IMG/VR virus record: IMGVR_UViG_3300006737_000167
Location: 1-26,130 of that record
Strand: one strand, 5' to 3'
Source of the DNA: a virus
Length of the DNA stretch: 26,130 nt
The position numbers were made by a program, and so were the translations under genes. Positions 237-11,387 of this stretch are shown here, one piece after another. The notes beneath the pieces were generated by a model, which worked only from the letters and a program-made list of their open reading frames with translations, was not told the origin of the DNA and made no database searches. The first letter of the stretch is position 1. Each line of letters starts with the position of its first letter.

Positions 237-466
237 CTTTCATATATTTTCAATACAAACACCTACCAAAAGGGTTAAAATGCCTCAGAAGTTAAAAAAA
301 CTTTTATAAGGGGTATTGTGAACATTTTAATACAACTAGTATTAGCACAAATTGTTCAAAACTTTCCAACAAATTTTTGTTCGTTTCGTTTGGTCGTTCC
401 AATTTAATTTTTGAATATTTGTTCCATCATTTCGGCAATAATGCCATCAAACTAAAAATATTGAAA
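237..466. other. A/T-rich non-coding gap between operons
   Basis: About 230 bases separate the phosphoesterase stop from the first ATG of the next gene. No convincing gene is visible, although an in-frame TTG at 377 could extend the downstream gene by 30 residues of poor-looking sequence. The gap holds a nested dyad (319-358). A weak promoter-like pair is also present: TTTG at 389-392, then AATATTTG at 414-421, 21 bases apart, one mismatch from the Bacteroidota -7 consensus TAnnTTTG. I see no canonical terminator with a U-run. The region plausibly contains the promoter for the rightward operon, but this is inference. Confidence 0.4.
319..358. repeat. nested inverted repeat (possible operator)
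   Basis: TGAACA (319-324) is complementary to TGTTCA (353-358). Inside it, TAATAC (328-333) pairs with GTATTA (339-344) around a 5-base loop. The two dyads have slightly different centres. This could be an operator for a repressor or a weak RNA hairpin. There is no U-run after it, so an intrinsic terminator is unlikely. Confidence 0.3.
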
Positions 467-622
467 ATGACTATTTATCACCTAAAAAACGAAAACGAAT
501 TATTTGAGAACATCTATGACTTAGTAGATTATGTAATATCTGCAGGTATATGCCCTAGTGTAGAGTTTTATAAGAATGGAGAACCTATGGGAGAATATGC
601 AGAGGACTTTATAGTAGCGTAA
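467..622 (+). CDS. small hypothetical protein (51 aa)
   Basis: The protein is unrecognised. I chose the ATG at 467 because an ACTAAAAATA leader (451-460) sits just upstream, as at several other starts here, and because the longer frame from TTG 377 adds residues unlike a normal N-terminus. The product MTIYHLKNENELFENIYDL... is acidic, mostly helical by appearance, and ends YAEDFIVA. It has no membrane segment or signal peptide. Its stop codon (620-622) falls inside stem I of the hammerhead ribozyme, so translation of this gene could disturb ribozyme folding. It is the first gene after the non-coding gap and may open the early operon. Function unknown. Confidence 0.5.
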   Translation: MTIYHLKNENELFENIYDLVDYVISAGICPSVEFYKNGEPMGEYAEDFIVA

Positions 623-735
623 ATCTGATGAGCCTAGAAAGGCGAAACTAGGGAGGGTTAGTAATTTTATTTAATAACCTCAGCAGTTATACTTTGTGTG
701 TAATTACAATTCCCCCCCTAGTCATTTACTAACTA
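612..735 (+). ncRNA. type I hammerhead self-cleaving ribozyme
   Basis: All catalytic-core elements are present in order. Stem I is GUAAAU (619-624) paired with AUUUAC (724-729). The core CUGAUGA is 625-631. Stem II is GCC (632-634)/GGC (641-643) with loop UAGAAA, followed by core GAAA (644-647). Stem III is ACUAGGG (647-653) with CCCUAGU (716-722), then an A/C mismatch and GGG/CCC (655-657/712-714). C723 is the unpaired cleavage nucleotide, giving a canonical GUC triplet cut between 723 and 724. Stem I continues past an internal loop (616-618/730-731) with UAGU/ACUA (612-615/732-735), where natural hammerheads make loop-loop contacts. The stem III loop is long and itself folds: GUAAUU/AAUUAC (661-666/702-707) and AUAAC/GUUAU (674-678/686-690). 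Because stem I is the open end, this is type I. Cleavage would leave a 26-nt leader before the ATG at 750. Confidence 0.92.
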
Positions 736-749
736 AAAATATAAAAATT

Positions 750-980
750 ATGAGTAATATGAGTTATTGTAGGTTCCAAAACACTAGTAACGACCTACAG
801 GATTGTATAGATGCAATCGAGGAGATGAATAATAACAACGGCCGAAACGGATATGACGAGCCACTATCTAATGATGAGCAAGAGGCTTTTAGAAGTATGA
901 TAGAAATGTGTAGAACATACCTAGAATTTTCTGAGGAGTTGTTAGATACAATAGATAATGACGAAACATATAACGACTAA
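750..980 (+). CDS. small acidic phage protein, MSYCRFxNT type (76 aa)
   Basis: The predicted product begins MSNMSYCRFQNT and continues with an acidic, helical body (DLQDCIDAIEEM...). Short proteins beginning MSYCR(F/M)xNT with a following DLxDC are common in phage genomes, but I know of no assigned function. The ATG at 750 is preferred to the upstream GTG at 696, because 696 lies inside the ribozyme's stem III region while an A-rich leader (AACTAAAAATATAAAAATT) directly precedes 750. ATG 759 is an alternative. The gene is the direct downstream neighbour of the hammerhead, so its mRNA 5' end would be set by ribozyme cleavage. Its stop overlaps the next start by one base (TAATG), which suggests coupled translation. 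Confidence 0.7.
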   Translation: MSNMSYCRFQNTSNDLQDCIDAIEEMNNNNGRNGYDEPLSNDEQEAFRSMIEMCRTYLEFSEELLDTIDNDETYND

Positions 981-1891
981 TGAGTAAAAAATCAATAGTC
1001 TATAAAATGATTACCGAGATGGTAATTGAGGGACTTAAAACAGAGGGCTTAGAATGGTTTAAGCCGTGGACTAGTAACGGCGAAATAGTTATGCCTAGAA
1101 GTTATACTAGTCAATCAGAATATAAAGGGTTGAATATGATGTTGTTATCTAGCCATATGCGACATAACAATATAGAGAACCCTAATTTTATAACCTACAA
1201 ACAGGCTCACGAACTAGGAGGAACGATAAAGAAAGGTTCTACTAGTGTACCTGTAATATGGTGGGTTGTATCTTACTGCTACGAGGGTAAATGGTATAAT
1301 GACGCTAAAAAACTACCTGTTGCTACTAGCCATAAAGATGTGTACGAAAATTGGACTCCTAGATATTATAGAGTATTTAGTATTACTGATACCGAGGGTA
1401 TTAAGGATATGAAATGGGTAAAACCTAAACCTACTAACAGAAAGAAGTTTAACCCTATAAAGAAAGCAGAGGCTATTTATGATAAATACCCTAAACGACC
1501 TGCCTTAATGATAGGAGGAACTAGAGCATTCTATTCTCCTACTACTGATGCTGTAAGTATGCCTAATGGTATTGACTTCAAAACATCTGACGACTACTAT
1601 AAAACTTTATTTCACGAACTAGTACACTCTACAGGACACGAATCTAGATTAAATAGATTAGAGAGAACACGATTCGGAACTGAGAAATACTCTAAGGAGG
1701 AACTAGTAGCCGAGATGGGAAGTATGTTTCTAGTAGCAATGACAGGAATAAGTCCTCAGGACTCCTCTCTTAACTCGCAAGCGTATATTAACGGATGGGT
1801 TAAGAAACTAACGAACGAGCAGGAGATGGTAATTCAGGCTAGTTCACAGGCACAAAGAGCAATAGAATTATTAACGAAAAACATAAACTAA
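980..1891 (+). CDS. ardC: ArdC-like antirestriction protein (ssDNA-binding domain + zincin peptidase)
   Basis: The 303-residue protein has the two-part ArdC layout. The N-terminal region (about 1-135) resembles the ssDNA-binding ArdC-N domain, with the typical EWFKPW, YKGLNMMLL and FITYKQAHELGG segments. The C-terminal region (about 155-300) is an MPTase-PolyVal-type zincin with HELVH at 212-216 and a downstream EELVAEMGSMF (240-250) that supplies the third zinc ligand and a helix. In plasmids such proteins protect incoming DNA from restriction, and phage homologues are often encoded early. It follows the previous gene with a one-base overlap and precedes a very acidic small protein by one base. 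An early anti-defence role is an inference from family and position; whether it cleaves a host protein is unknown. Confidence 0.88.
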   Translation: MSKKSIVYKMITEMVIEGLKTEGLEWFKPWTSNGEIVMPRSYTSQSEYKGLNMMLLSSHMRHNNIENPNFITYKQAHELGGTIKKGSTSVPVIWWVVSYCYEGKWYNDAKKLPVATSHKDVYENWTPRYYRVFSITDTEGIKDMKWVKPKPTNRKKFNPIKKAEAIYDKYPKRPALMIGGTRAFYSPTTDAVSMPNGIDFKTSDDYYKTLFHELVHSTGHESRLNRLERTRFGTEKYSKEELVAEMGSMFLVAMTGISPQDSSLNSQAYINGWVKKLTNEQEMVIQASSQAQRAIELLTKNIN

Positions 1892-8399: not shown

Positions 8400-8972
8400 A
8401 TGAAAATGAAAATCAGCAAGTTAGTCCCTAATGACGATAACCCTAGGGCAATTAAAGACAGTAAATTTAAGAAACTAGTAAAAAGTATTCAGGACTTCCC
8501 TCAAATGCTTGACCTAAGGCCAATAGTGGTAAATGAAAAGATGGTTATACTAGGAGGAAATATGAGGTACAGGGCTTGTATTGAGGCAGGACTAAAAGAA
8601 ATACCTGTAACTATCGCTAAAGGATTAACTGAGGAACAGGAAAAAGAGTTTATAGTTAAAGATAATGTAGCATTCGGTGAGTGGGATTGGAGCGAACTAG
8701 CGAATAAGTGGGACAATGTTTCTCTAGGTGAGTGGGGTATGGATGTATGGCAACCTGAGGAGGTAGTAGATTACGCTATACTAGATGACTTAAACTTAGA
8801 TGAGGAAGTTGAGGAGAAAACTAGAGCAGTAAAACGAGCAATACAAATAGAGTTTAGTAGCGAGGATTACGATGAGGCTATGGACTTATGTGGTATCTAC
8901 AGAAAGAATGATGTATATATAGGAGGGTTAGTCCTCAAAACACTACTAGAGAATAAGCCTAGTGTGGATTAA
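8400..8972 (+). CDS. ParB/sulfiredoxin-like domain protein
   Basis: The N-terminal half is a ParB/Srx-type domain. ISKLVPNDDNPR (5-16) is followed by PIVVNEKMVILGGNMRYRACIEAGLKEIPVTI (41-72), including the GGNMRYRA signature corresponding to the G.RR..A nucleotide-binding core. A C-terminal segment (about 147-185: AIQIEFSSEDYDEAMDL... VYIGGLVLKTLLENKP) resembles the tail seen in phage ParB-like proteins beside DNA-modification genes. Proteins of this fold can bind nucleotide and act in nuclease or modification roles. No separate methyltransferase domain is fused. Its 3' end overlaps the PLP enzyme by 11 bases, and it heads the predicted hypermodification cassette. A DNA-nicking or modification-accessory role is inferred. 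Confidence 0.75.
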   Translation: MKMKISKLVPNDDNPRAIKDSKFKKLVKSIQDFPQMLDLRPIVVNEKMVILGGNMRYRACIEAGLKEIPVTIAKGLTEEQEKEFIVKDNVAFGEWDWSELANKWDNVSLGEWGMDVWQPEEVVDYAILDDLNLDEEVEEKTRAVKRAIQIEFSSEDYDEAMDLCGIYRKNDVYIGGLVLKTLLENKPSVD

Positions 8973-9897
8973 CACTATATATGACTTAACCCCTATTGAA
9001 CTAAAAGGGGGTATGCACTTTAAAAGGGACGATAAATTTGCCCCTAAAGGTTACGGACATATCAATGGTTCTAAACTAAGGCAATGTTTATGGTTAGTAG
9101 ACAAATGGAGAAAAGAAAAGAACATTAGGGGAGTAGTTAGTGGTTCAGTATCACAAAGCCCTCAACACGCTTTTATATCAGAAATATGTAAACATTATGG
9201 TATAGGTTGCGTTATTGCTTACTCTAAAAAGAATATTGACAAAAGTCCTTACCTAAAACTTGCACAAGAGAACGGAGCAAAACTAGTCTATTCTAAAGTA
9301 GGTTACGCTAAAACACTAGGAGCAATAAGCAAAAAATTACTAGATGTATTACCTAATCACGAGTTTTTAGAAACGAACATTACCCTAGAACACTCCTGTA
9401 ATACTTGGGAGGATATTGAAGCATTTCATTTAGTAGGAGCAGAACAGGTTAAAAACATACCTAGCGACATTAAGCGAATTATAATCCCTTGCGGTTCTTG
9501 TAATTCTGTTACTAGTATATTATATGGGTTAATTCTATACCCTAAACCGAATATAAAAGAAGTGCTACTAATGGGTATTGGTAATCACGGCTCAAAGAAT
9601 ATCGGCTACATAGAACATAGATTAAAGAATATTTGTGCTTGGAAAGGCATAAGTATAGATAATAAATTTGACTTTAAATTCAAAAACGACACTACTAAAG
9701 AGATTGTTCTTAAATACCATAACCTAAACGGCTCAGGGTTTTGTACCTATACCGACACTATGGATGAACAGATTGAGGACTTGGTATTTCACCCTAGATA
9801 TGAGGGAAAGGTAATTAGGTTTATGAGGGCTAACCTAATGAAATATTGGAATAAAGAATCGTTATTTTGGGTAGTAGGAAGTGATATAAACTTATGA
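8962..9897 (+). CDS. fold-type II PLP-dependent enzyme (TrpB/ACC-deaminase-like)
   Basis: The 311-residue protein has a tryptophan-synthase-beta-like layout. The probable Schiff-base lysine is K38 in HINGSKLRQCLWL, comparable to GGNKxRK of the ACC deaminase/D-cysteine desulfhydrase group. A substrate-binding segment SGSVSQSPQHA (60-70) follows, then a helix leading to YLKLAQENGAKLVYS (97-111). The phosphate-binding loop is an unusual PCGSCNS (176-182) rather than GTGGT. The start is GTG 8962, overlapping the ParB-like gene by 11 bases; the stop overlaps the next start by four. Phage thymidine-hypermodification pathways include PLP enzymes, so it may remodel an amino-acid adduct on DNA. The chemistry (elimination, replacement or decarboxylation) cannot be read from sequence. 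Confidence 0.8.
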   Translation: MWINTIYDLTPIELKGGMHFKRDDKFAPKGYGHINGSKLRQCLWLVDKWRKEKNIRGVVSGSVSQSPQHAFISEICKHYGIGCVIAYSKKNIDKSPYLKLAQENGAKLVYSKVGYAKTLGAISKKLLDVLPNHEFLETNITLEHSCNTWEDIEAFHLVGAEQVKNIPSDIKRIIIPCGSCNSVTSILYGLILYPKPNIKEVLLMGIGNHGSKNIGYIEHRLKNICAWKGISIDNKFDFKFKNDTTKEIVLKYHNLNGSGFCTYTDTMDEQIEDLVFHPRYEGKVIRFMRANLMKYWNKESLFWVVGSDINL

Positions 9898-11387
9898 AAG
9901 ATTATAGATTAAACGAAAACAGACGGCAAGTATTCCTAGACTTTTATGAATACCATCTAAAGTACCGAGCGCATCCTGGAGCAGTCTACTATGCATTCCC
10001 TTACATATTTGACAAACTAGATATGAATATGGAGCAGAAACTATGGTTTGTATTCATCAATGGTTGTAGTCAGAATGTAGTAACTACTTATGCCCTATAT
10101 AAAAAGTTCCCTAATTTAGCCGAACTAGATGTTAAAGAATTTAGCGACTACTTTAGAAAGCATTATGATAAACTAGGTTGGGACACGGACAGACGCTATG
10201 TAAAAAACAAACTAGAGATATGCGTTCAAAGTTATCTAGATAACCTTAAAGGACAAAGTCAAGAACACTTCTTTAGAATTATAGGTAATACAAATGATAA
10301 ATACGCAAACTTTGGTAGGATATGGCATAAAATAATGAACGACTTTGCCTACTTTGGTAGGTTAGCAACCTTTAGTTATATGGAGTATCTAAGACTAGCA
10401 GGGGTTTATGTTGATTGTAACGACCTGTTTCTAGAGGATATTTCAGGAAGTAAATCACATAGAAACGCTTTATGTAAAGTTCTAGGTAGGGACGATTTAG
10501 ATTGGACTAAGGATAATGAGGTAACTTATGACGAAACTACTATTGCTTGGTTAAAACAAGAGGGAGAGAAATTACTTAACGAAGCAAAGGAAAAGATTAC
10601 CCACGAGGACTTATCTTACTTCACGCTAGAAAGTACCCTATGTTGTTATAAATCGTGGCACAGGGTTAACAGGAGGTACCCGAATGTGTATAATGATATG
10701 TTCTTTGACAGGATAAAAAGAGCAGAACGCTTATGGCCTAGTATGGATTATTCAATCTTTTGGGAGGCTAGGGAGAAATATCTACCTGAACACTTGCGAC
10801 TAGAATGTAATCCACTAGACAAAGGACTACACAAATCAAAACAAAATCACTATAGACTAACAGGAGAAGTAATTATGATGGAAAACGAGGGATATAAAGT
10901 AACTAATAAGCCGTGGATTAGAAACACAATACTAATTATAGGACAATGCGGAGTAGGTAAAACTTGGGTAATGAAACAATTACTTAGGGAGGAAAACAAA
11001 ACATTCAAACTAGGTATGTTTTCATTTCACGAAACAGACAAATACATAGTAGTCGGCAAATATGATAACTCAACTTTTGAGGGTAGCGATAAATTATCTA
11101 TGGCCGTTATGCGAGATTTACCTAAAATGCTTGGTTACATAAAGGCTAGGGGAAAGATTGGAGTATTTGAGGGAGATAGATTTACCAATAGCAAATTTAT
11201 AGAGAAAGCAGAACCCCTAATCATTAGAATAAAAGGAGATGGGAAACTAGGTAGAGAAAAACGAGGCTCAAATCAGACCGAAAGACACCTAAAGAGTATA
11301 GCAACAAGAGTAGGCAATATACAAGCCCATCAGGAACTAGATAACTCAACTAAAACAATTACTTACCTAAACAAAATACTATGCTAA
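9894..11387 (+). CDS. fused helical domain + P-loop 5-hydroxymethyluracil DNA kinase-like protein
   Basis: Two parts are visible. Residues 1 to about 300 are helical and resemble the HMUDK_hel/aGPT-PPlase-type helical domain of phage base-hypermodification enzymes: FYEYHLKYRAHPGA near the start, FGRLATFSYMEYLR at 154-167 and EDISGSKSHRNALCKVLGRD at 181-200. Residues about 340-497 form a P-loop kinase with Walker A GQCGVGKT (350-357), a VVGKYDNSTFEGSDKLSM segment, EGDRF (426-430) and RGSNQTERHLKSIATRVGN. This pattern matches 5-hmdU DNA kinases, which phosphorylate the hydroxymethyl group of 5-hydroxymethyluracil in DNA. The helical half may bind DNA or carry the transfer activity that replaces the phosphate with an amine nucleophile. 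Which of these it does is unresolved. It overlaps both neighbours (4 and 7 bases). Confidence 0.8.
   Translation: MKDYRLNENRRQVFLDFYEYHLKYRAHPGAVYYAFPYIFDKLDMNMEQKLWFVFINGCSQNVVTTYALYKKFPNLAELDVKEFSDYFRKHYDKLGWDTDRRYVKNKLEICVQSYLDNLKGQSQEHFFRIIGNTNDKYANFGRIWHKIMNDFAYFGRLATFSYMEYLRLAGVYVDCNDLFLEDISGSKSHRNALCKVLGRDDLDWTKDNEVTYDETTIAWLKQEGEKLLNEAKEKITHEDLSYFTLESTLCCYKSWHRVNRRYPNVYNDMFFDRIKRAERLWPSMDYSIFWEAREKYLPEHLRLECNPLDKGLHKSKQNHYRLTGEVIMMENEGYKVTNKPWIRNTILIIGQCGVGKTWVMKQLLREENKTFKLGMFSFHETDKYIVVGKYDNSTFEGSDKLSMAVMRDLPKMLGYIKARGKIGVFEGDRFTNSKFIEKAEPLIIRIKGDGKLGREKRGSNQTERHLKSIATRVGNIQAHQELDNSTKTITYLNKILC

Follow-up and report, generated by a model that had tools for sequence, protein, structure and literature searches.

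Organization of the locus

The window analyzed here is the whole 26,130-nucleotide stretch of IMG/VR virus record IMGVR_UViG_3300006737_000167. Near its start, three genes (467-622, 750-980, and 980-1891) are all encoded on the plus strand, and a predicted hammerhead ribozyme lies between the first two of them, close to the downstream start codon. The features of the locus, all on the plus strand, are listed below.

467-622, plus strand: upstream gene of 51 aa with its stop codon TAA (620-622) in stem I; relatives in locus L434 (66%) and contig G001 (43%)
612-735, plus strand: complete type I hammerhead ribozyme with extended stem I, identified by descriptor, by a free minimum free energy (MFE) structure that is the hammerhead fold, and by covariance model (37.3 bits)
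612-618, plus strand: 5' strand of lower stem I (612-615, four pairs with 732-735) and 5' side of the internal loop (616-618, AGC)
619-624, plus strand: stem I 5' strand GUAAAU, pairing with 724-729 (6 bp, checked base by base)
625-631, plus strand: catalytic core CUGAUGA (C3 to A9, with G8 at 630), from sequence and descriptor
632-643, plus strand: stem II, GCC/GGC, with loop UAGAAA (635-640)
644-646, plus strand: core GAA (G12 at 644), from sequence and descriptor
647-722, plus strand: stem III (647-653/716-722 and 655-657/712-714) with a folded insertion at 658-711
721-723, plus strand: cleavage triplet GUC, with predicted cleavage at 723/724, from sequence and descriptor
724-729, plus strand: stem I 3' strand AUUUAC, the opening bases of the 3' cleavage product
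730-735, plus strand: 3' side of the internal loop (UA, 730-731) and lower stem I (732-735)
724-749, plus strand: AU-rich leader of 26 nt that predicted cleavage would leave on the downstream mRNA, read from sequence and typical of the class
750-980, plus strand: downstream gene of 76 aa, phrog_8760, with ATG at 750; conserved in many phages
980-1891, plus strand: ArdC-like antirestriction protein, a relative of which is encoded directly behind the orthologous hammerhead in G001

The phrog_8760 gene thus stands between the ribozyme and the ArdC gene in the window. The invariant core CUGANGA ... GAA(A) is present at 625-631 and 644-647 and is surrounded by three helices of 6, 3 to 4, and 7 bp, with stem I open toward the rest of the transcript. 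Stem II comprises three G-C pairs (632-634/641-643) and possibly an extra U635-A640 pair, while stem III consists of 7 bp followed by an A654/C715 mismatch and the pairs 655-657/712-714. The cleavage triplet, which must have the form NUH (H not G) and adjoin stem III, is GUC at 721-723. A sequence-only reading of the window had described a type I hammerhead with all core elements, three stems of these lengths, and an internal loop in stem I, and had placed cleavage at 723/724, the upstream stop codon inside stem I, a long and further folded insertion in stem III, and a 26-nt leader in front of a small phage gene. A base-by-base check found every one of its coordinates correct, the GUC is correctly placed by both sequence and descriptor, folding within 658-711 is likewise predicted, and the small gene belongs to the phrog_8760 family. 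On its sequence and modeled fold, the element is a type I hammerhead, as had been observed, and its activity is predicted.

Elsewhere in the window, a PALP-like enzyme (8962-9897, below the Pfam cut-off) adjoins an amino acid:DNA transferase (ADDT; 9894-11387, Pfam 82.6 bits), and this pair of neighbors suggests that thymines of the phage DNA are hypermodified. As the window is a fragment, the full phage may hold further hammerhead copies.

Folding, descriptor, and covariance analyses

The descriptor, which combines the core, the three helices, and a correctly placed cleavage base, matched the 26-kb window only once, at 612-735, and the same full descriptor gave 0 matches in 40 dinucleotide shuffles. 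For 612-735 the unconstrained MFE was the same as that constrained to the hammerhead fold (-28.0 kcal/mol), while the MFE structure computed with added flank (600-740) kept stems II and III and opened stem I; in the model, flanking sequence can compete for stem I. Moreover, the energy of 612-735 was only modestly lower than that of shuffled sequences (z = -1.6), and fold energy by itself is unremarkable and not evidence for the ribozyme.

A covariance model built from 89 other phage hammerheads, with the window left out, gave the element a score of 37.3 bits (E = 5.5e-8), contributed largely by the core and stem II because the model does not accommodate the long stem III. When a second hammerhead was sought in the window with this model, the next best site reached 12.2 bits (E = 0.64). 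Rfam, on the other hand, gave no match in the window at gathering cut-offs and, under an E-value threshold, no more than a partial type III match (24.1 bits, E = 0.004), which was rejected as the identity of the element because the type I layout is complete. The cut-offs of RF00163 and RF00008 also miss all hammerheads in five multi-copy phage loci (L012, L017, L033, L063, and L088), and the blank Rfam result was therefore not taken as a sign of absence. The curated score is a database criterion that does not define a ribozyme, and it is not diagnostic here because clear phage hammerheads also fall below it. Since the standard cut-offs overlook these ribozymes, annotation of phage genomes relying on them misses them.

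Relatives of the locus

Contig G001 (31 kb, containing L063) is distantly related to the window: its ArdC is 43% identical, the upstream gene has a homologue there (43%), and the two have many structural genes in common. G001 carries four hammerheads, one of which lies between the upstream-gene homologue and ArdC. This orthologous ribozyme has the stem I AUUACU/AGUAAU, a stop codon at the edge of stem I, a 27-nt leader, and a short stem III, and because its stem sequences differ from those of the window, the structure has been kept by compensation. Compensatory changes in homologous phages, which the sequence-only reading had set as a check on itself, are seen in this orthologue and in about 100 other hammerheads. 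In addition, members of the phrog_8760 family occur directly behind hammerheads in the otherwise different phage G026, as well as in L419, L425, and L426, where three near-identical copies have a 34-nt leader.

Among loci fetched only for their gene relatives, a hammerhead was found in 12 of 80 for ArdC and 6 of 80 for phrog_8760, frequencies that are not taken as enrichment next to ArdC; two of the 12 ArdC loci (L286 and L346) came from contigs already in the hammerhead set. All 26 of the 26 model matches near ArdC and phrog_8760 genes were on the sense strand. The ribozyme is not essential to these genes, because many homologous gene pairs occur without a hammerhead. The upstream gene has its closer relative (66%) in L434, whose sequence can be aligned with that of the window until just past the stop codon, where a AAAAGGGG/CCTCTTTT hairpin followed by a T run (2150-2190) occupies the place of the ribozyme. 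Read from sequence in this one example, the hairpin would be a terminator-like element replacing the ribozyme after a homologous upstream gene. A DNA-level search of named phages with window positions 300-1300 returned no match, and the model found no hammerhead in the named phages bearing relatives of ArdC or phrog_8760 (YuA, FBKp34, CcrKarma, CRP-804, and two spring-water phages).

Hammerheads in viral and cellular genomes

IMG/VR was scanned with a pattern limited to the core, stem II, and a downstream GTC of unspecified position, and at least 120 stretches matched. Stem I was not part of the pattern, and an element was counted as type I when it had a stem I of at least 5 bp and a stem III of at least 4 bp. 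Among the matches listed, 102 of 123 non-redundant sequences had stems I and III, compared with 2 of 615 in a shuffled-flank control. The remaining ones among these 123 were nine type III hammerheads, four weak type I hammerheads, and eight that were neither; the idea that matches without a good type I fold are split ribozymes was rejected, given the nine type III and four weak type I cases. The same pattern in bacterial and archaeal genomes gave 117 matches, including 21 type I, 2 weak type I, and 23 type III hammerheads. In an alignment of 89 phage hammerheads from the matches listed, 99.1% of cells were paired and double changes occurred in 13 of 15 pairs; because pairing had guided the choice of this set, the independent, non-circular test is the shuffled-flank comparison. 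The IMG/VR sample consists of the matches listed and is not random, and related phages inflate the counts. Hammerheads prove to be very common at gene junctions of bacterial viruses, among which that of the window is a typical one and not unique.

The loops of the window element, whose putative contact would favor fast cleavage, also follow a wider pattern, with UAGAAA in loop II matched to UA after stem I, as in the subclass with nAnAAn loops. UA follows stem I in 22 of the 26 hammerheads with such a loop II, and 7-nt loops go mostly with AA (loop II class versus UA or UU, Fisher p = 3e-13, for sequences that are not independent).

Several further observations came from these searches. The type III hammerheads found in phage contigs by the same scan (L029, L041, L055, L058, L060, L092, L094, L116, and L119) include several that directly precede start codons, and apparently they share the role of the type I ones. 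G026 (39.8 kb; L126/L127) and G016 (L128) hold 13 model matches in one 40-kb contig and, in the other, nine along a series of small genes. In L021, L026, and L120, hammerheads have an 11-bp stem III, and its arm bears repeats of a GAGACCGCAAA/GAGTCCGCAAA-like motif that the contigs share.

Stop-to-start geometry

Gene positions around 178 phage hammerheads from the matches listed were taken from a simple open reading frame (ORF) caller. By this caller, 127 of the 178 lay between two genes on the strand of the ribozyme, 15 were inside an ORF, and 10 were at contig edges. Stem I or the core contained the upstream stop codon in 98 of 140 cases among the matches listed, compared with 79 of 794 random intergenic positions. 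Similarly, the leader from the cleavage site to the start codon was 20 to 28 nt long in 65 of 136 cases among the matches listed, compared with 48 of 865 random positions, and that of the window measures 26 nt. The CUGAUGA core itself provides two in-frame UGA stops, some phage hammerheads occur without an upstream gene ending nearby, and the peak in leader length may come partly from tight packing of the ribozyme against the ribosome site.

Stem I was near-uniform within a phage, with 76% identity within versus 49% between phages, and 15 of 16 contigs with at least three hammerheads each (e.g., L088, L128 [G016], and L089) exceeded the between-phage mean. Stem II and the upstream flank, unlike stem I, were not uniform within a phage. 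Because stem I is near-uniform, processed mRNAs from a single phage would begin with shared bases.

Proposed function and alternative explanations

Hammerhead cleavage products bear 5'-hydroxyl and 2',3'-cyclic phosphate ends, and a 5'-hydroxyl blocks phosphate-dependent decay. We consider it probable that the element serves in intercistronic mRNA processing, by which the upstream message would gain a protected 3' end and the downstream one a short 5'-hydroxyl leader. As we infer the events, from cleavage and the chemistry of the ends in the cell to the consequences for stability and translation, they would run as follows. The ribozyme would fold across the junction of two cotranscribed genes, and the shared transcript would cut itself after C723. 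The upstream message would then end in the stem II and stem III hairpins with a 2',3'-cyclic phosphate, resisting 3' exonucleases, while the downstream message (the phrog_8760 gene, then ArdC) would begin with a 5'-hydroxyl and the short AU-rich 26-nt leader. Such a leader would free the downstream start codon from upstream structure, and the 5'-hydroxyl would slow decay by pathways dependent on a 5' phosphate. The ribozyme would thus act as a processing and insulating element, a task for which a terminator and a promoter could serve otherwise.

The observations counted for this processing role are the complete fold with its core, stems I and III in the relatives, the compensated G001 orthologue, the recurrent geometry of stop codon and leader, the sense-strand matches, the terminator-like hairpin of L434 instead of a ribozyme, and the matched pair of loop II and internal loop typical of the subclass. 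Related prophage hammerhead arrays cleave in vitro, and one set does so in Escherichia coli as well (PMC3088659). Support for the processing role is limited by the modest z score of -1.6, by the competition of flanking sequence for stem I, and by the many gene pairs without a hammerhead.

The modest z score also leaves room for a chance or decayed hammerhead-like fold without activity, but the energy of 612-735 is set against an intact invariant core, the absence of descriptor matches in 40 shuffles, the compensated orthologue, the matched loop pair, and the typical position, which make such a fold highly improbable. More deserving of attention, although still unlikely, is a translation-gated switch, in which ribosomes terminating at 620-622 would set the formation of stem I and hence cleavage and downstream expression, in either direction. 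The stop codon lies inside stem I here, overlap with stem I or the core recurs in 98 of 140 cases among the matches listed versus 10% at random, and two in-frame UGA stops are found within the CUGAUGA core; however, phage gene packing accounts for the overlap, and some hammerheads occur without an upstream gene ending nearby. Moreover, a terminating ribosome would cover the 5' strand of stem I and the core and should block cleavage only briefly. Because of this footprint, a ribosome at 620-622 would be expected to hold cleavage back, not to favor it. The sequence-only reading had suggested that ribosomes finishing the upstream gene could open the ribozyme; the overlap with the stop codon is real and recurrent, while the opening is putative and not supported as stated.

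With 54 nt, the stem III insertion (658-711) is a long one for which folding is predicted, and a few other phage hammerheads have long, repeat-bearing stem III arms (L021, L026, and L120), which might point to a ribozyme regulated by a ligand or a protein with the insertion as its sensor. Such regulation seems very unlikely, given that stem III length varies freely in the class with no common sensor domain, that no homologue of the insertion was found and nothing credible in Rfam, and that the G001 orthologue has a short stem III; there is no sign of a conserved sensor. An RNA ligase joining cleaved segments into circular or spliced RNAs would find suitable ends, as a 5'-hydroxyl and a 2',3'-cyclic phosphate suit RtcB, and tandem hammerheads do bracket single genes in several phages. 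This window, however, has a single hammerhead, RtcB was not found in 19 hammerhead-bearing phage records (many of them fragments) while the control matched 9 of 14 genomes, and Perreault et al. sought such products and found none (PMC3088659), so that ligation has very little probability.

Beyond intercistronic processing at this locus, it is possible, though we would not call it probable, that hammerheads are a general dedicated gene-junction module of tailed phages, combining the stop overlap, a 3' end, and a 5'-hydroxyl leader of set length for the next gene. If this were true, the processed mRNAs would carry a phage-specific 5' tag. For many phage junctions, the geometry predicts that a 5'-hydroxyl end lies some 25 nt ahead of the start codon and that a 3' cyclic phosphate end falls just past the upstream stop. 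The geometry makes the general idea of transcript processing specific.

Comparison with known systems

RiboJ-type synthetic insulators were derived by engineering a plant satellite ribozyme and adding a hairpin; placed in the 5' leader, their hammerhead cuts the mRNA back to a short and fixed 5' end. The ribozyme of the window, in contrast, is natural and intercistronic and overlaps the previous stop codon. The core and helices of Rfam Hammerhead_1 (RF00163) and Hammerhead_3 (RF00008) are common to the window element, which differs in scoring below the curated cut-offs, like the multi-copy phage hammerheads tested. The HHphage ribozyme of haloviruses HF1 and HF2 also lies just upstream of the start codon of an early phage gene (PMC3088659), but it is a variant hammerhead 13 nt from that codon, whereas the core in the window is of the standard form and the leader is 26 nt long.

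Hundreds of bacterial hammerheads, many of them in prophages, were described by Perreault et al. in 2011, including prophage clusters that flank single genes, for which cutting of long phage transcripts into gene-length mRNAs was proposed, and hammerheads adjoining the antirestriction gene ardA (PMC3088659). The main text of that article yielded no mention of stop codons or ribosome sites, and neither the stop-to-start geometry nor the within-phage uniformity of stem I was found in the literature outside subscription journals and preprints, where they may be reported. The geometry of a stop codon in stem I and a leader of 20 to 28 nt is quantified here over about 140 junctions among the matches listed. 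Compared with the prophage and phage type I hammerheads of 2011, the window element has the same core, type, and position between genes and likewise an antirestriction neighbor, ArdC instead of ardA, while it differs as a single copy in a 26-kb fragment and in its longer, folded stem III (PMC3088659). Knowledge of phage hammerheads at gene boundaries dates back to 2011 (PMC3088659), and the window element adds another of that kind.
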